The translations under genes and the position numbers were made by a program. Below, piece by piece: positions 25,706 through 34,544 of a DNA stretch of 64,000 nucleotides. The stretch spans positions 806,001 through 870,000 of the forward strand of contig CP040678.1 in the NCBI GenBank assembly GCA_005954745.1. Direction: 5' to 3'. Numbering within the stretch: position 1 is the stretch's first letter; each line of letters opens with the position of its first letter. The notes under the pieces are model-generated. The model was not told the origin of the DNA, searched no databases, and worked only from the letters and a program-made list of their open reading frames with translations. The DNA comes from Halostella pelagica. GTDB lineage: Archaea > Halobacteriota > Halobacteria > Halobacteriales > Natronoarchaeaceae.

Positions 25706-26164
25706 TCACTTTTGCTTGCACGGCGGTAATCGAACGACTGAGAGCCAGAACTGCTGGAGAGACTGGATCGCTTCGATGAACTCACTGGGGTCGACCGGTT
25801 TCGTCAGGAACGCGTTCGCCTGCAGTTCGTAGGACTTGACGATATCCTCCTGGGCTTCCGAGCTTGTAAGAACAATTACTGGAAGGCGCTTCAGGTCGGG
25901 ATCGTTGCGGATCTCCTTGAGCACCTCGTCGCCGTCTTTCCGCGGGAGATTGAGGTCGAGGAGGACCACATCCGGACACGGCGCGTCCTCGTAGTCCCCG
26001 CGTTGATGGAGGAAATCGAGCGCTTCGACCCCGTCGGTCGCGACGTGGAGTGTGTTGGCGATCTGACCCTCCTTGAATGCCTCTTCCGTTAGCCGGACAT
26101 CTCCCGGATTATCCTCGACGAGGAGTATCTCTGCTCGGTCAGCGGAAGAGTTCTGTTCACTCAC
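25706..26164 (-). CDS. Response regulator (single receiver domain)
   Basis: This 152-residue protein is a lone receiver domain: acid pocket EILLVEDNPGD (Glu17, Asp18), phospho-acceptor Asp at about 70 in VVLLDLNLP, switch Thr/Ser in VIVLTSSEAQEDI, and conserved Lys in FLTKPVDP. It has no output domain, so it passes phosphate to or binds a partner, much like Rcp1-type regulators of photoreceptor kinases. The start is a GTG (26164) overlapping the end of the upstream histidine kinase by 8 bases, so the pair is translationally coupled and this is its likely target. Confidence 0.88.
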   Translation of the reverse strand: MSEQNSSADRAEILLVEDNPGDVRLTEEAFKEGQIANTLHVATDGVEALDFLHQRGDYEDAPCPDVVLLDLNLPRKDGDEVLKEIRNDPDLKRLPVIVLTSSEAQEDIVKSYELQANAFLTKPVDPSEFIEAIQSLQQFWLSVVRLPPCKQK

Positions 26165-29100
26165 TGTATGTGCTTTCGGCGGGCAGGGTGAATGAAAACG
26201 TCGATCCCTCCCCAACCGCTGAGTCGACCCATATCTCCCCGTCGTGGCGCTCGGCAATGCGCTCACAGAGCGCGAGCCCGATCCCCGTCCCCGAGTGGGT
26301 ATCCGACGCGTGGAGGCTCTGGAACACATCGAATACCCTGTCCGCGTCGTCCGGGTCGATGCCGATCCCCTCGTCGCTGACCGATATCACCCACTCAGAA
26401 CCGTTCCGTTCGGCCGAGACGTCTATTCGAGGGCGCTCCTCGCCGCTGTACTCGATGGCGTTGGAGAGTAGGTTCTGAAACACCTGACGCAACTGCCCCT
26501 CGTCACCCTCGACGCATGGAAGTGGGTCTGCCGTGATCTCGGCGCCGCTCTCCTCGATCCGCACTTTGAGATCCGAGCGGACATCGGCGAATATTTCCTC
26601 CAGTTCGACGGCCTCGAACTGGTTTCCTCGCATATCGACCCGAGAGTACTTGAGCAGTCCTTCGATCATGTCGCGCATTCGGTCGGCCCCGTCGACTGCG
26701 AAGTCGATAAACTCCTGACCGTCCTCGTCGAGTTCGTCGGCGTACCGTTTCTCGATCAACTGGAGGTAGCTCGACACCATTCGAAGAGGCTCCTGAAGGT
26801 CGTGGGAGGCCGCGTAGGCGAACTGTTCCAGGCGCTCGTTGGACGTTTCGAGTTCGTCGATCAGCTCTTCGAGTCGCTGCTCGCGCTCGACCTGTTCGGT
26901 AATGTCCTGTGCCGCCCCACGGAACGAAACGACGTCGCCGTCGACGGTCTCCGGTATCCCCTGAAGCCGAAGCCAACGCATCTCTCCACTGTCCGTACAG
27001 ACTCGGACATCTGCGTCGAAGGGGTCGCCGGAGGCGAGCGCGTCCTCGACGGCATCCTCGACGATCGGCTGGTCGTCCTCGTGGTACATGTCGATGGCCT
27101 CGTTCAGCGGTGGTTCCCCGTCGTCGGGCAGATCCAGAACTTCGAAGATGTGGTCGGTCCAGAACACGTCCTGCGTCTGCGGGTCGATCTCCCAGCCGCC
27201 GACGTCCGCGATACGTTCAGTCTTCTCGAGCAGGTCGAGTGTCCGTTCGAGTTCGGCTTCGCGTTCGACCTGCTCCGTGATGTCCTGGGTGAAACTTAGC
27301 CCGGCGAATATCTCGTCGTCGGCGTCGCGTAGCGGTGTCACCCACACCTGCCAATGTCGGCCCCCGAATTCGGTTCTCGCGCTATCGGTCGTGCCGTCCT
27401 CGACGGCGGCGCGGAACAGCGGTTCGAGATCCTCGACTGTGTCCGGCGGGAATATCTCCGTCATTCTTTCGCCTTCGAGCCGGTTCGAGCTTGGCAGGGT
27501 GTCACCGAGTACGGCCCCTGCAGTCAGCGTGTACCGGAGGTCCGGGTCGTACACCCCGACTGCACCGTTCGGGAAGTGCTCGGCGAGCGTCCGGTAGCGC
27601 CGCTCGCTTTCCTCTAACTGACGCTCGCGCTCCTTTCGCTCGGTGATGTCCTGACCAGTACCGACGATGCGGCTGATCTCGCTGTCCTCGTCGTACACTC
27701 TGGTTCCTTTGGCGTGGACCCAGCGGATTTCGCCGTCGGGGCGGACGATCCGGAACTCCCCGTCGAAATCATTCTCCGGGAGCGCCGTGAACTCCTCCCG
27801 AACGCGCTCGTGATCGTCGGGATGGACCACATCGAGAAACGACAGCGGCTCGTCGTACAGGCTCTTCCGATCGATCTCCCACACTTTCTCGAACGCGGGG
27901 TTGATGTAGATGAACTCCTCGGCGTCAGGCGTGGCCATCCAGACGACCTCCTCTAAGTTCTCCGCGAGTATCCGGAACTTCGCCTCGCTCTCGCGAAGTT
28001 CGTGTTCGGCCTCCCGTCGCTCGGTGATGTCCTGTACGACGAGCATTCCCGCGGAGACCTCGCCCTCGCTGTCCCTGACGGGGAGCGTGTTGGCGTGGAG
28101 ATACCGGCCCCCGTATTCGACTTCGAAGGTGTTCGTTTCGCCCTCGAGGGCGGCCAGGTAATACGGCTCGATATCGTCGAGCAGGCTGTCCGGATGAATG
28201 TCGTAGATGTGGCTTCCGACGCGGTTCTGCGGTGAGATGTCGAGCGCGTCTAGGAGTTGTCCACCGACAGCGGTGTAACGCAGGTCTCGGTCGAACAGTC
28301 CGACCGACCCGTTCGGGAAGTTCTCGACGAGCGTCCGGTACCGACGCTCTGACTCCTCTACCTTCCGTTGCTGTTCGATCCGTTCAGTGATGTCCCGAAC
28401 GACGCCGACGTGTCTCTCCTCGCCGTCGCCAACCTGAAGCGTCGAGAAGGTTCTCTCTGTGGGGACGGAGGTACCGTCCGCCGTCTGGATAACCGCTTTC
28501 ATCGTTCGGTCGGTCCCTTCTCCGTCCATCGTTGTCCGCATCTCTCGGGACTGTTCGATCGCGTCCTCGTCGACGAGCGAGGCGTGTTCGCCGACCAGTG
28601 TCTCGTGGTCGTAGCCGGTTAGGTCCGCGTACGCGTCGTTAACCATCGTGAACCGTCCGTCATCGTCTTTCACGTAGATCCCGTGGTCGATCGTTTCGAC
28701 GATCGTCTCGTATCTTGCCAGTTCGCGCTCGCGCTCCGTGCGCTCGGTGATGTCCTGAGACATCCCGAGTGCGGCGAGTATCTCGCCGTCGTCGTCCCGA
28801 ACCGGGACGAACTGGAACTGGAAGACCCGGTCACCGAGTTCGGTCTCGAACGTATTCGACTCTCCCTCTAGCGCGGTCTCGTACCGCGGAGCGAGGTCGT
28901 CGGCCAACTCCTCCGGGAGCGCCTCGTGGACCGACTGCCCCTCTATCTCGTCGATGGGTACCCCGGCCACGTCCAGCGGACTCCCGCCGACCGTCCGATA
29001 GCGGAGGTCCTCGCCGACGAGGGAGACGGCCCCGTTCGGGAAGTGCTCGGCGAGCGTCCGGTACCGGCGCTCGGATTCCTCGAGTTCGCGCTCGTGCTGT

Positions 29101-30311
29101 CTGCGTTCTGTGATGTCGCGGTCCGAGACGATCAGCGACACGACCTCGTCCTCGTCGTTCGTGACGGGTCTGAAGACGCCGTTGAGGACGTACTCCGTGC
29201 CGTCCGGCCGTGTGAGGTCGGCCTCGAAATCGACGTACTCGCCGCCTGCGGCGCGCTCGACCCACTGCTCGACGTCCGACTGTACTCCGTCGTCTTCTTG
29301 CCACCACGGCGTCTCCCAGAACGCCTCGCCGGTGACATCGTCGAGGTCGGCGTCGATGTACTCCATCGCCGTCTGGTTGATATCGAGCACCGTCCCGTCG
29401 GGTTCGAGCAAACCGGCGAGGATGTTCGGGTCCTCGAAGACGGCTTCGAACTGGCGCTCTTTCCGACGGAGTTCCCGCTGGTACTCCGTCTGTTCGGTGA
29501 TGTTGCGAACGACGCAGACGTATCGCCCATCGTCAAGTTCCGTCAGGGATAGATCCTGCGGAAACGAACTGCCGTCCTTGCAGAGTGCGGTCGCCTCGCC
29601 CCGCCAGCTACCCTCCTCGAACAGCGCCGGCAGAACCTCTGATTCGAAACGTTCGATCTCGTCGTCGTCGTAGCACAGTCGCCAGGATTCGCCAAGGAAC
29701 GTCTCGGGGTCGTCGTAGCCGTAAATATCGGCGTGGGCCTGGTTGGCGAACACGTACTCCTCGTTCTCGTCGAGGATCGCGACCCCGTCGACGGTGTTCT
29801 CTCTCGCCGCCGAGCGGGCCGCGAGTTCTCGCTCGCGCTCGCTCTCTGTCTCGCCCGTTCGGGACCGTTCGTCATGCTCGCTCTCCGTTTCGCCCGTTCG
29901 GAACCGTTCGTCATGCTCGCGAACGGTCCCGACGACGCCCTGTACGGTGTCGTCCGCTTCGAGCGGGTTCACCCGTACCTCACAGGGAACCAGTTGTCCC
30001 CCGGCAGTTCGAACGTCAAGTTCGTACCGTTCGCCTCGGTCGCCGGGATCGGTGCGGATCCGCTCTATCTCGCGTTCGAGGGCCGGACAGTCGTCGTGGA
30101 GTTCGGAGACGTGTTCGCCGAGGAGGTCCTCTCGCGCGTATCCGGTCATCTCGACCAGAACGTCGTTGACCGCGGCGAACTGACCGTCGGCATCGAGTTG
30201 ATAGACCCCGTCGCCGATCGCGTTCACGAGCGTTTGATAGCGTTCGCGGGCCTCTGTGTCGTCTATGTCGCCCCAGAACGCCGTTCCAGAGGCCTCAGCC
30301 CGTTTGCTCAT
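26157..30311 (-). CDS. Sensor histidine kinase with nine PAS domains
   Basis: This 1384-residue kinase has no predicted membrane segment and should be cytoplasmic. Nine PAS units precede the kinase: about 24-150, 160-285, 290-410, then three repeats of a two-PAS module at about 412-653, 654-902 and 903-1150. Each module opens with an RRYRTL...FPNG motif. HisKA holds the phospho-acceptor His at about 1170 (YAASHDLQEPLRMV), and HATPase at about 1262-1380 contains the N-box (QNLLSNAIEYSG). The downstream gene is its response regulator. A 39-bp tandem repeat encodes a 13-residue duplication between PAS1 and PAS2. The ATG at 30311 is preferred because upstream residues have no domain content. Confidence 0.9.
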   Translation of the reverse strand: MSKRAEASGTAFWGDIDDTEARERYQTLVNAIGDGVYQLDADGQFAAVNDVLVEMTGYAREDLLGEHVSELHDDCPALEREIERIRTDPGDRGERYELDVRTAGGQLVPCEVRVNPLEADDTVQGVVGTVREHDERFRTGETESEHDERSRTGETESERERELAARSAARENTVDGVAILDENEEYVFANQAHADIYGYDDPETFLGESWRLCYDDDEIERFESEVLPALFEEGSWRGEATALCKDGSSFPQDLSLTELDDGRYVCVVRNITEQTEYQRELRRKERQFEAVFEDPNILAGLLEPDGTVLDINQTAMEYIDADLDDVTGEAFWETPWWQEDDGVQSDVEQWVERAAGGEYVDFEADLTRPDGTEYVLNGVFRPVTNDEDEVVSLIVSDRDITERRQHERELEESERRYRTLAEHFPNGAVSLVGEDLRYRTVGGSPLDVAGVPIDEIEGQSVHEALPEELADDLAPRYETALEGESNTFETELGDRVFQFQFVPVRDDDGEILAALGMSQDITERTERERELARYETIVETIDHGIYVKDDDGRFTMVNDAYADLTGYDHETLVGEHASLVDEDAIEQSREMRTTMDGEGTDRTMKAVIQTADGTSVPTERTFSTLQVGDGEERHVGVVRDITERIEQQRKVEESERRYRTLVENFPNGSVGLFDRDLRYTAVGGQLLDALDISPQNRVGSHIYDIHPDSLLDDIEPYYLAALEGETNTFEVEYGGRYLHANTLPVRDSEGEVSAGMLVVQDITERREAEHELRESEAKFRILAENLEEVVWMATPDAEEFIYINPAFEKVWEIDRKSLYDEPLSFLDVVHPDDHERVREEFTALPENDFDGEFRIVRPDGEIRWVHAKGTRVYDEDSEISRIVGTGQDITERKERERQLEESERRYRTLAEHFPNGAVGVYDPDLRYTLTAGAVLGDTLPSSNRLEGERMTEIFPPDTVEDLEPLFRAAVEDGTTDSARTEFGGRHWQVWVTPLRDADDEIFAGLSFTQDITEQVEREAELERTLDLLEKTERIADVGGWEIDPQTQDVFWTDHIFEVLDLPDDGEPPLNEAIDMYHEDDQPIVEDAVEDALASGDPFDADVRVCTDSGEMRWLRLQGIPETVDGDVVSFRGAAQDITEQVEREQRLEELIDELETSNERLEQFAYAASHDLQEPLRMVSSYLQLIEKRYADELDEDGQEFIDFAVDGADRMRDMIEGLLKYSRVDMRGNQFEAVELEEIFADVRSDLKVRIEESGAEITADPLPCVEGDEGQLRQVFQNLLSNAIEYSGEERPRIDVSAERNGSEWVISVSDEGIGIDPDDADRVFDVFQSLHASDTHSGTGIGLALCERIAERHDGEIWVDSAVGEGSTFSFTLPAESTYSE
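29842..29919. repeat. 39-bp tandem duplication inside the kinase gene
   Basis: Two copies (29842-29880 and 29881-29919) match at 36 of 39 positions. In the protein they give back-to-back 13-residue EHDERFRTGETES-type units, in frame, in a hydrophilic linker between PAS1 and PAS2. This is probably a recent slippage-type duplication. Confidence 0.85.
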
Positions 30312-30506
30312 ATGGACGGTAAAACACTTCGAGATGGATAAGGTTCCTGTCCGGTAATCGTACCACGGAGACGCGAGTATTTCTCGACGGAACCCGCTCC
30401 GGGCTTCGGACACTACTCCTCGATCCGGCGGACGACGGCGATATCTGTGTACCCCGGCCGCGGCCGACACGGAAAGCGTATTGTGTTCCCGGGCGTCGCC
30501 GTGCGT

Positions 30507-31061
30507 ATGCCTGGAGCACGCGTTACGAGCGGTGAGCGGGTCACGCTCCGGACGATCGAACGAGAGGACATTCCGTTCCACCAGCGGGCCTTCGCGAACC
30601 CCGAGATCCGGTATCCGACCGGCAACCCGGTCAGGAACCGGGAGCAGACCGAAGTATCGGACCAAGACGACGGTAGCGACAGCTTCCTCGTCTGTCTCGA
30701 CGCGGACGATGCCGGCCCCGGACAGCCGGACGAGGACGACGTGCAACGGATCGGCGCAGTGTACGTCGGAGACGTCGATTACCGGCGTCCGGAACTGGGC
30801 TACTGGCTCGCTCCGGAAGCCCACGGCGAGGGCTACGGCGCGGAGGCAGTCTCGCTCGCGATCGACTACGTCTTCCGGACGTACGACCACCCCGCCGTGG
30901 GTGCGGGGGCGTACGACTTCAACGACGCGTCCCGCGGCCTGCTGGAGTCACTCGGGTTCACTGAGGAAGGCCGCATCCGCAAGGACCGGTTCGTCGACGG
31001 GGAATACGTCGACCTGGTACAGTACGGGCTGCTCCGTCAGGAGTGGCGTGAACGGGAATAA
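30507..31061 (+). CDS. GNAT family N-acetyltransferase
   Basis: This 184-residue protein has a GNAT fold: RVTLRTIEREDIPF start, the GYWLAPEAHGEGYGAEAVSLAIDYVF stretch (about 96-125) with the acetyl-CoA pyrophosphate loop pattern (H-G-x-G-Y-G), and a C-terminal SLGFTEEGRIRKDRFVDGEYVDLVQYGLL. It resembles ribosomal-protein alanine or small-molecule (RimJ-like) acetyltransferases. The substrate is unknown. I chose the ATG at 30507; the open frame reaches further upstream but that part is basic and unlike the family. Confidence 0.85.
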   Translation: MPGARVTSGERVTLRTIEREDIPFHQRAFANPEIRYPTGNPVRNREQTEVSDQDDGSDSFLVCLDADDAGPGQPDEDDVQRIGAVYVGDVDYRRPELGYWLAPEAHGEGYGAEAVSLAIDYVFRTYDHPAVGAGAYDFNDASRGLLESLGFTEEGRIRKDRFVDGEYVDLVQYGLLRQEWRERE

Positions 31062-31084: not shown

Positions 31085-31984
31085 CTACAGTTCGGCTCCG
31101 CAGTTCATACAGAACGACACCGACTCCTTGTTTCGGTGCCCGCAGTCGCCGCAGGCGACACCGTCCGCTGCCGCGTCGCCGTCGTCGAACGCGTTCGTCG
31201 CGTCGCCGGTGTCGCCGGCGCTGGTCGCGGTTTCGTCGTCCGCTGTCGCCGCGCCAGCATCGCCGGCAGCGCCGTTGTCCGCCGAACCGGCTTCGGCGTC
31301 CGCACCGGCATCTGCCGACGCCGTCCCGGTTCGAACTGTCTCGTCGTCTCCGTGGGCGGCCGGCGTCCCCGTTCGCGTTCCGGTGGTCGGCGACCCCCCG
31401 TCGGGTTCGTCGGCGACGTTCGACTCGTCCATCTCCTCGTTTACACCGGCGGATGGTCCGGTCGTTTCACCCACGGTAGTTCCCGGACCGGACGACCCGC
31501 TCACAGTAGCTCCCGTTCCGGTCGTCTCGCTCACAGTAACCCCCGGCCTGGACGACCCGCTCACACCGGCGTCCGGTCCGGTCGGACCGGACGGATCGCG
31601 CCGGCCGTTCGGTTCCGCAGCGGCGGTGTCGCCGTGAACTCCGTCGTCGACGGCGGCCCGGATCTCCTCTCGGATCACCGTCTGGTCGACGACGCTCGTC
31701 TCCTCGTCGATGACGCTTGACATCGTCCAGTAGAACGCGGCGGACTTGCCGATCTGCCAGACGAGAACGCCGACGACCGCCGAGACGGCGGCGAGCGGTA
31801 CGTTGGCCGCCGCCCGAGCCTCGTCGACCGCCCCCGTGTTCCCCAACTCGTTGAAGAGGATATCGAGGGACTCACCGAGGCCTGCCGATATCCCGGCGAT
31901 GGCGATCGCCATACCGACGACGAACGACCCCGACGCGAGGAGGCGGTAGTACGCCGCCCATCTCACTGCCACTTTCGTATCCAT
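31085..31984 (-). CDS. Zinc-ribbon membrane protein with low-complexity linker
   Basis: This 299-residue protein has two hydrophobic helices (about 12-35 and 60-85), a long Gly/Ser/Thr/Ala-rich disordered linker (about 115-265) built from degenerate repeats of the type TGPDAGVSGSS and PGVTVSETTG, and a C-terminal zinc ribbon with four Cys (CGDCGHRNKESVSFCMNCG). Such layouts often belong to membrane proteins that place a zinc ribbon in the cytoplasm. I do not recognise a function. The repeat-rich middle is coded by imperfect 30-odd-base repeats between about 31450 and 31600 and is likely to vary between strains. Confidence 0.75.
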   Translation of the reverse strand: MDTKVAVRWAAYYRLLASGSFVVGMAIAIAGISAGLGESLDILFNELGNTGAVDEARAAANVPLAAVSAVVGVLVWQIGKSAAFYWTMSSVIDEETSVVDQTVIREEIRAAVDDGVHGDTAAAEPNGRRDPSGPTGPDAGVSGSSRPGVTVSETTGTGATVSGSSGPGTTVGETTGPSAGVNEEMDESNVADEPDGGSPTTGTRTGTPAAHGDDETVRTGTASADAGADAEAGSADNGAAGDAGAATADDETATSAGDTGDATNAFDDGDAAADGVACGDCGHRNKESVSFCMNCGAEL

Positions 31985-32089: not shown

Positions 32090-32105
32090 TACTCGATACT
32101 GAGTA
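32090..32105 (+). promoter_or_regulatory. Candidate TrmB operator 1 upstream of ppsA
   Basis: The sequence is TACT-CGATACT-GAGTA, an exact match to TACT-N7-GAGTA, the motif reported for the sugar-responsive regulator TrmB of Halobacterium. It lies about 115 nt before the ppsA start. Confidence 0.65.
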
Positions 32106-32127
32106 GGAACTCTGACATCGAAGAACG

Positions 32128-32143
32128 TACTCGCTTTCGAGTT
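32128..32143 (+). promoter_or_regulatory. Candidate TrmB operator 2 upstream of ppsA
   Basis: The sequence TACT-CGCTTTC-GAGTT differs from TACT-N7-GAGTA only at the last base. It lies about 25 nt upstream of the likely TATA region (AAAGTACTTTAC, 32166-32177). For TrmB a position upstream of the TATA box goes with activation, which suits a gluconeogenic gene. Confidence 0.6.
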
Positions 32144-32165
32144 GGAACTATTCCCCACCGTTCGC

Positions 32166-32177
32166 AAAGTACTTTAC
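32166..32177 (+). promoter_or_regulatory. TATA region of ppsA
   Basis: AAAGTACTTT is a perfect 10-bp palindrome, continuing to TAC, 28-39 nt before the ppsA start codon. It fits a TATA box for a leaderless mRNA. Confidence 0.45.
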
Positions 32178-32204: not shown

Positions 32205-34544
32205 ATGCCAGTATTGTCACTGGAGGAGACCGGGGCCGAAGACATCGACGCCGTTGGCGGGAAGGGAGCCTCACTCGGCGAACTTACGGGTGCCGGGCTG
32301 CCGGTGCCGCCCGGATTCGTCGTCACTGCTGGAACTTACAGGACGTTCATCGAGGAGGCAGGTATCGACGAAGAACTGTTCGAGGTGGTCGACGTCGACG
32401 TGGAGGATTCCGCCGCACTGTCCGAGGCCGCGGACCGCGCACAGGAACTGATCCTTGGCGCGGAGTTCCCCGAGTTCCTCCGGAAGGAGGTACTCGGCGC
32501 GTACGCGGATCTGGGTGACGGGAACGCGTTCGTCGCGGTGCGCTCCTCGGCCACCGCGGAGGACCTTCCGGACGCGAGTTTCGCGGGCCAACAGGAGACG
32601 TACCTCAACATCACCGCGGAGGACCTGCTCGACCGCGTGCGCGAGTGCTGGGCGTCGCTTTTCACCCAGCGTGCGATCTACTATCGGCAGAACCAGGGGT
32701 TCGACCACAGCGCCGTCAACATCGCCGTGGTCATCCAGCAGATGGTCGACGCCGAGAAAAGCGGGGTCATGTTCACCAGCCACCCGTCGACGGGCGACCC
32801 TCGAATGATCATCGAGTCCGCGTGGGGTCTGGGTGAGGCGGTCGTCTCCGGGTCGGTGTCGCCGGATAACTACGTCATCGACCGCGAGAGCGGGAGCACC
32901 GAGGAGATCACCGTCGCGGAGAAGAAAGTGATGCACGTCCGGGACGAGGAGACCGGCGAAACGGTCGAGCGGCCCGTCCCCGACGAGAAACGCGAACAGC
33001 GCGTCCTCTCGGACGAGGAACTCGACAGCCTCCGGCAGATGGGCGAACGAGTCGAGGACCACTACGGCACGCCGCAGGACGTCGAGTGGGCCATTTACGA
33101 GGGTGACGTGTACATGCTCCAGTCGCGGCCGATAACGACTATCGACGACGGCGACATCGGCGAGGCCGAGGAGTCCCGTATCGACGGCGACATCGGGACC
33201 GACGCCAAGGCCGAGGCGTCCACGGACGGGAGCGGGGCCGTCAAAAGCGCGAGTAACGGGTCCGACGCTCGCGACGACGTACTCGTCAGCGGTCTCGGGT
33301 CCAGTCCCGGCGCGGCGAGCGGTGCGGTGCGTATCGTCGGTAAACTGGACGAACTCGACAAGGTGGGCGACGGCGACATCATCGTCACCGAGATGACGAC
33401 GCCCGACATGGTGCCGGCGATGAAGCGGGCGTCCGGCATCGTCACGGACGAGGGCGGGATGACCAGCCACGCCGCCATCGTTTCACGGGAACTCGGCGTC
33501 CCCGCCGTCGTGGGTGCCAGCAACGCGACGACGGTGCTTTCCGACGGCCAGTTCGTCACGCTGGACGGCGACAAAGGGGCCGTCAGGGAGGGCCACGAGC
33601 AGCAGGAAAAACAGCGGGAACCGATCGAGGACGCACGCCCGGAGACGCCGGTGAAGCCGATGACCGCGACGGAGGTCAAGGTAAACGTCTCCATCCCCGA
33701 GGCGGCCGAACGCGCGGCGGCCACCGGCGCGGACGGCGTCGGCCTGCTTCGGATCGAGCACATGATCCTCTCGCTCGGACAGACGCCCACCAAATACATC
33801 GAGGAAAACAGCGAGCGCGCCTACGTCGACGAGATAGTCGACGGCGTCCAGCGCGTAGCCGAGGAGTTCTACCCGCGCCCGGTCCGGACCCGGTCGCTCG
33901 ACGCGCCGACCGACGAGTTCCGCGAACTCGAAGGCGGCGAGGACGAACCAGAGGAACACAACCCGATGCTCGGCTACCGCGGTATCCGCCGCAGCCTCGA
34001 TACGCCGGAACTGTTCAAACTCGAACTCGAAGCGTTCCGGCGACTGTACGAGATGGGGTACGACAACATCGAGATGATGTTCCCGCTGGTCAACGACGCT
34101 GAGGACGTGCTCCGGACGAAGAAGCTCATGGAAGACGTCGGGATCGACCCCGAGAAACGAACGTGGGGCGTGATGATCGAGACGCCCGCGTCGGCGCTCG
34201 GCGTCGAGAAGATGGCCGAAGCGGGCATCGACTTCGCTAGCTTCGGCACGAACGATCTCACGCAGTACACCCTCGCGGTCGACCGTAACAATGGGAACGT
34301 CGCGGACCGCTTCGACGAACTTCACCCCGCCGTTCTCAACCTCATCGGAACGACTATCGAGACCTGCAGGGAGTACGATGTCGATACGAGCATCTGCGGA
34401 CAGGCCGGATCCAAGCCGAAGATGGTGCAGTTCCTCGTCAACGAGGGCGTCAGTTCCATCTCGGCGAACATCGACGCGGTTCGCGACGTGCAACACGAGG
34501 TCAAACGCGTCGAGCAGAAACTGATGCTGGAATCGGTCAGATAG
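32205..34544 (+). CDS. ppsA: Phosphoenolpyruvate synthase
   Basis: This 779-residue enzyme converts pyruvate and ATP to PEP, AMP and phosphate for gluconeogenesis. Domains: N-terminal pyruvate phosphate dikinase ATP-grasp (about 1-330; GGKGASLGELTGAGLPVPPGF, ADDLPDASFAGQ-type AEDLPDASFAGQQETYLN), mobile domain with phospho-His at about 422 (EGGMTSHAAIVSRELGVPAVVG), and C-terminal PEP barrel (about 470-775) with the catalytic Cys at about 731 (SICGQAGSKP). Length and motifs are normal. The ATG at 32205 follows two candidate TrmB sites, so expression is probably raised when sugar is scarce. Pyruvate kinase (42.6 kb) runs the opposing step. Confidence 0.97.
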   Translation: MPVLSLEETGAEDIDAVGGKGASLGELTGAGLPVPPGFVVTAGTYRTFIEEAGIDEELFEVVDVDVEDSAALSEAADRAQELILGAEFPEFLRKEVLGAYADLGDGNAFVAVRSSATAEDLPDASFAGQQETYLNITAEDLLDRVRECWASLFTQRAIYYRQNQGFDHSAVNIAVVIQQMVDAEKSGVMFTSHPSTGDPRMIIESAWGLGEAVVSGSVSPDNYVIDRESGSTEEITVAEKKVMHVRDEETGETVERPVPDEKREQRVLSDEELDSLRQMGERVEDHYGTPQDVEWAIYEGDVYMLQSRPITTIDDGDIGEAEESRIDGDIGTDAKAEASTDGSGAVKSASNGSDARDDVLVSGLGSSPGAASGAVRIVGKLDELDKVGDGDIIVTEMTTPDMVPAMKRASGIVTDEGGMTSHAAIVSRELGVPAVVGASNATTVLSDGQFVTLDGDKGAVREGHEQQEKQREPIEDARPETPVKPMTATEVKVNVSIPEAAERAAATGADGVGLLRIEHMILSLGQTPTKYIEENSERAYVDEIVDGVQRVAEEFYPRPVRTRSLDAPTDEFRELEGGEDEPEEHNPMLGYRGIRRSLDTPELFKLELEAFRRLYEMGYDNIEMMFPLVNDAEDVLRTKKLMEDVGIDPEKRTWGVMIETPASALGVEKMAEAGIDFASFGTNDLTQYTLAVDRNNGNVADRFDELHPAVLNLIGTTIETCREYDVDTSICGQAGSKPKMVQFLVNEGVSSISANIDAVRDVQHEVKRVEQKLMLESVR

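Follow-up and report, generated by a model that had tools for sequence, protein, structure and literature searches.

A conserved predicted TrmB operator and a species-specific second palindrome upstream of ppsA in Halostella pelagica

Results

The ppsA locus and its two operator-like sequences

The gene for phosphoenolpyruvate (PEP) synthase, ppsA, lies near the middle of the window (the whole 64-kb stretch of Halostella pelagica DNA analysed here), where it is preceded by a promoter core, two operator-like sequences and a divergent gene. These features are listed below by their positions in the window, with distances counted from the ATG of ppsA.

31085-31984, minus strand: divergent gene (ORF) for a 299-aa putative membrane protein with a C-terminal zinc ribbon (PF13240 Zn_Ribbon_1, 25.2 bits, barely above cut-off)
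32090-32105, plus strand: distal site, TACTCGATACTGAGTA, at -115; a perfect palindrome, operator-like and species-specific
32128-32143, plus strand: proximal site, TACTCGCTTTCGAGTT, at -77; a conserved predicted TrmB operator
32161-32177, plus strand: ppsA promoter core, TTCGCAAAG (BRE-like) followed by TACTTTAC (TATA-like); conserved
32205-34544, plus strand: ppsA, phosphoenolpyruvate synthase, 779 aa (NF005057, 946 bits; TIGR01418, 930 bits; both above cut-off)

The ppsA product contains the Pfam domains PPDK_N, PEP-utilizers and PEP-utilizers_C. Its promoter core is conserved as TTCGCAA/GGAA-N-CTTCTTTA in nearly all of the ppsA upstream regions compared, and the proximal site stands upstream of the BRE/TATA elements, with 26 bp between its end and the TATA-like box. 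Farther off, on the minus strand at 26157-30890, is a very large ORF whose translation resembles that of a sensor histidine kinase containing many PAS-type repeats.

Previous studies on Halobacterium salinarum established TACT-N(7-8)-GAGTA as the TrmB consensus (PMC3794607; PMC4158304). A first-pass annotation of the window claimed that TACTCGATACTGAGTA at 32090-32105 matches this consensus exactly and that TACTCGCTTTCGAGTT at 32128-32143 misses it by one base, and both statements were confirmed, the single mismatch of the proximal site being at the last base. Because the distal site is a palindrome of the form TACTC-N6-GAGTA, it matches the consensus on both strands. It is also the sole exact N7/N8 match in the 64-kb window, for which dinucleotide shuffles gave 0.18 expected matches and a maximum of 2. 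When the 220-bp intergenic region was shuffled, one site with at least 9 of the 10 fixed palindrome bases appeared in 1.2% of cases, and two such sites in 0.005%.

The scan of the whole genome that had been proposed for this motif was run, and it was of little help: seven exact palindromes were found in 3.94 Mb, mostly within genes, together with hundreds of sequences with one mismatch, so that chance matches are too many. Genome-wide motif counts (345 matches with at most one mismatch vs 107 for the reversed control) were accordingly rejected as evidence. By itself the motif is weak evidence, and it is the comparative evidence that is decisive.

Conservation of the proximal site across haloarchaea

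For comparison, 80 haloarchaeal ppsA loci were collected and joined with the window to give 81 regions, each comprising up to 300 bp before the start codon. Every site was scored by the number of matches among the 10 fixed bases of the palindrome TACTC-N6-GAGTA, in a position window of -90 to -70. A palindrome scoring at least 7/10 starts within these limits in 71 of the 81 regions (mean 3.9 and maximum 9 in dinucleotide shuffles) and one scoring at least 9/10 in 25 regions, against 0.035 expected; as the 81 regions come from related genomes, albeit of many families, these counts are not independent observations. When the spacer length was varied as a control, an excess was seen at the 6-base spacer only, barring a weaker N10 signal, which we attribute to a second left-hand ACTC in Natrialbaceae.

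The operator starts cluster at -76 and at -82 to -86 in the haloarchaeal ppsA regions. The distance from the operator end to the TATA-like box falls into two spacing classes, of about 25 and about 31 bp, that are roughly half a helical turn apart. Alignment of 70 sites showed that the core bases A-(C/T)-T-C and G-A-G-T are nearly invariant, and that the outermost base at each end of the published consensus is free to vary. The one mismatch of the proximal site therefore sits at a position that is variable throughout the class, and A-Y-T-C-G-N4-C-G-A-G-T may serve as a sharper working consensus than TACT-N7/8-GAGTA. All four congeners examined have the proximal site at exactly -77 (TACTCGGAAGCGAGTT, TACTCGGAACTGAGTT and, in two of them, TACTCGGATCCGAGTT). 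When conservation before ppsA in relatives was checked, then, it was the proximal site that was retained, and we conclude from this comparison that the site, as a predicted operator, is ancient and has been kept across most of the haloarchaeal class.

TrmB and the presence of the site

The genome encodes a single haloarchaeal TrmB, a protein of 354 aa with a TrmB helix-turn-helix and a sugar-binding domain (NF047392 equivalog, 618 bits vs a cut-off of 500), as well as at least three further proteins with a sugar-binding domain. The neighbourhood of trmB includes a second TrmB-like gene, along with genes for a sugar ABC transporter, a Gfo/Idh-type dehydrogenase and an aldo/keto reductase. Equivalent kinds of genes, plus one for glucose dehydrogenase, surround trmB in Haloarcula argentinensis, and the arrangement is the one reported for HAH_1548 and HAH_1557 in Haloarcula hispanica. 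The upstream region of trmB itself contains partial matches to the motif, for example TACTCGGTTTTCGGTA, and autoregulation is conceivable.

A search of 49 genomes for TrmB orthologues recovered a close one (61-88% identity) in 46. The three TrmB-less genomes, those of Halovivax asiaticus and two Natronomonas, have no intact ppsA palindrome (0/3). In a class-wide draw of 193 genomes, in which ppsA was located as well, 27 were without a TrmB orthologue at E 1e-60. Promoters were read in 11 TrmB-less genomes from six genera and in 39 TrmB-bearing ones, the latter hand-chosen to cover many genera. A score of at least 8/10 at ppsA was reached in none of the 11 TrmB-less genomes vs 22 of the 39 with TrmB (Fisher p = 0.001), and one of at least 7/10 in 2 of 11 vs 28 of 39 (p = 0.004), both tests ignoring kinship. 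The TrmB-linked difference persisted when only the best value per genus was used (p = 0.019). Within a single genus (g6), the two TrmB-bearing species score 8 and 9, and the TrmB-less one scores 6. A profile search with NF047392 confirmed the absence of TrmB in 11/11 and its presence in four controls. The TrmB-less genomes have retained a recognisable ppsA promoter core, so their ppsA regions can be compared with the others. The link between TrmB and the site is not an obligatory one, since several lineages (L212-L214, L216-L221 and L239) have kept a TrmB orthologue and lack the ppsA operator, in agreement with the rewiring described previously (PMC10817205).

Other candidate targets

A site of the same type, TACTCAATTTCGAGTT, is located at -72 from the ATG of gapII (the gene for the gluconeogenic type II GAPDH) in this genome, about 27 bp before a TATA-like element, and a comparable site is present at -69 to -72 in 5 of the 6 other members of the family in which the gene was located. 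Both gapII and ppsA are bound by TrmB according to a published study (PMC10817205). We also considered fbp and rejected it, there being no site of at least 8/10 near the FBPase-family gene of this genome, which may not be an orthologue of the Haloarcula fbp.

In H. pelagica, gapII and gapI-pgk are divergent (C1, about 291472-291769, outside the window). A near-palindrome, TATTCAGATATGAGTA, overlaps the likely start codon of gapI; it is also present in genome G001 and, in weaker form, in G002 and G003. TrmB might conceivably work as an activator/repressor switch between the two GAPDH genes.

The distal site

Nothing comparable to the distal site was found at its position in any of the four congeners examined (0/4). 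The suggestion that the distal sequence, as the exact match, is the better site is thus not supported; it is the "one-mismatch" proximal site that is conserved. At an offset of 38, the flanks of the distal site (ACG before and GGAACT after) agree with those of the proximal site, and GGAATT follows the proximal site in two congeners. On account of these similarities, the distal palindrome may have arisen by copying of the proximal operator, probably recently, and is confined to H. pelagica among the species examined. TrmB could plausibly bind it.

The first-pass annotation further suggested that the pair might give cooperative binding. The spacing of 38 bp between the two sites corresponds to about 3.6 helical turns, and simple side-by-side cooperation is therefore not favoured. 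Within the first set of 81 regions, the window alone has two sites scoring at least 8/10, and a double operator at constant, phased spacing was not found to be kept together in the congeners. The suggestion of cooperative binding is thus not supported. A haloarchaeon of the second genome set (G178) has two operator-like sites before ppsA, at -126 and -92, that is, 34 bp apart.

Discussion

We consider it about 90% probable that the proximal palindrome (32128-32143) is the operator by which haloarchaeal TrmB controls ppsA. The earlier claim that a TrmB operator precedes the ppsA TATA region is supported in this respect by the fixed position of the site, its absence in TrmB-less genomes, the operator at gapII and the published binding of TrmB at ppsA in two species. 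TrmB sites upstream of BRE/TATA are associated with activation, and sites downstream of it with repression (PMC4158304). Given that the proximal site is located upstream of BRE/TATA, activation of ppsA in the absence of sugar is the best prediction. We infer binding, release by sugar and activation at this ppsA from published work in other species. Under sugar scarcity, a dimer of TrmB would occupy the proximal palindrome just upstream of BRE/TATA and activate ppsA, so that pyruvate would be channelled into PEP and on to gluconeogenesis; in the presence of glucose, TrmB would leave the palindrome and ppsA expression would fall.

It is possible, though in our judgement doubtful, that both palindromes are functional operators, and that as a pair they make the control of ppsA by TrmB stronger or cooperative in H. 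pelagica. The distal palindrome scores a perfect 10/10, the occurrence of two sites of at least 9/10 by shuffling of the intergenic region is very unlikely (0.005%), and G178 also has two sites, yet the distal site is absent in 4/4 congeners, every other region of the first set has at most one strong site, and a spacing of some 3.6 turns would place the two dimers on nearly opposite faces. As the distal palindrome lies between a pair of divergent genes and about 106 bp away from the start of the zinc-ribbon gene (31085-31984, minus strand), it might instead serve this gene and not ppsA. Such a role is unlikely, as the distance to the TATA-like element of the zinc-ribbon gene is about 85 bp, compared with 25-31 bp at ppsA and about 27 bp at gapII, and as we know of no link between the zinc-ribbon gene and sugar metabolism.

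As for the proximal site, haloarchaea possess several TrmB-like paralogues, and with at least three more sugar-binding-domain proteins in this genome the conserved palindrome might be the target of a different regulator that recognises a similar sequence. This is very unlikely, however, because the site is missing specifically where the NF047392 equivalog is missing, its motif is the one published for TrmB, and ChIP has placed TrmB itself on ppsA in two species. The genome contains hundreds of matches with one mismatch, and exact palindromes are found inside genes too, as would be expected if both matches were chance occurrences of a short motif; for the proximal site this is excluded by fixed-position conservation across the class, and for the two sites together we regard it as extremely unlikely. 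The distal site taken alone could possibly be a chance match or a silent copy. TrmB control of ppsA through the proximal palindrome is thus the reading that we adopt.

Control of ppsA by TrmB is already known, and the ppsA operator described here is a known switch. What is new is that the operator is conserved throughout the class in an almost constant position and is missing where there is no TrmB; the sharper consensus and one lineage-specific second copy are new as well. The TrmB site of ppsA appears not to be a peculiarity of Halobacterium, but an old promoter element in most TrmB-bearing haloarchaea, Haloarcula included. To the question raised as to whether the ppsA site of Haloarcula has lost its function (PMC10817205), conservation argues that it has not. 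A more speculative proposal, which we think somewhat improbable, is that the ppsA operator is under TrmB selection throughout the class, even in the sugar-using Haloarcula, where TrmB control of ppsA was reported to be absent, and that its duplication in H. pelagica has created a two-site promoter with an altered sugar response.

Comparison with known systems

TrmBL1/Tgr of the Thermococcales is a related regulator of the TrmB family that is released by sugar and activates when bound upstream of BRE/TATA. Its glycolytic motif, TATCAC-N5-GTGATA (PMC4158304), is unlike the haloarchaeal palindrome, and upon reading was seen in neither the proximal nor the distal site.

In Har. hispanica, a ChIP-seq peak with the motif is located in the ppsA promoter, while deletion of trmB left ppsA expression unchanged under the conditions tested (PMC10817205). 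The system of TrmBHar (HAH_1548) resembles that of H. pelagica both in the motif at the ppsA promoter and in the ABC transporter neighbourhood of the regulator gene. The Haloarcula species examined have CACTCGAAATCGAGTG at -85 or -86, about 9 bp farther from the start codon than the proximal site of the window.

ChIP-qPCR in Hbt. salinarum showed TrmB to be present at the ppsA promoter without glucose and gone within two minutes of glucose addition, and ppsA is down 3.6-fold on glucose (PMC3794607). The TrmB (VNG1451C) system of that species and the one described here are alike in motif class (TACT-N7-8-GAGTA), target gene and regulator family, the motif likeness being judged by the published consensus. 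Occupancy and activation were measured in Hbt. salinarum, whereas in H. pelagica they are predicted. The second, perfect palindrome before ppsA is a feature of H. pelagica by which it differs from the Hbt. salinarum system.
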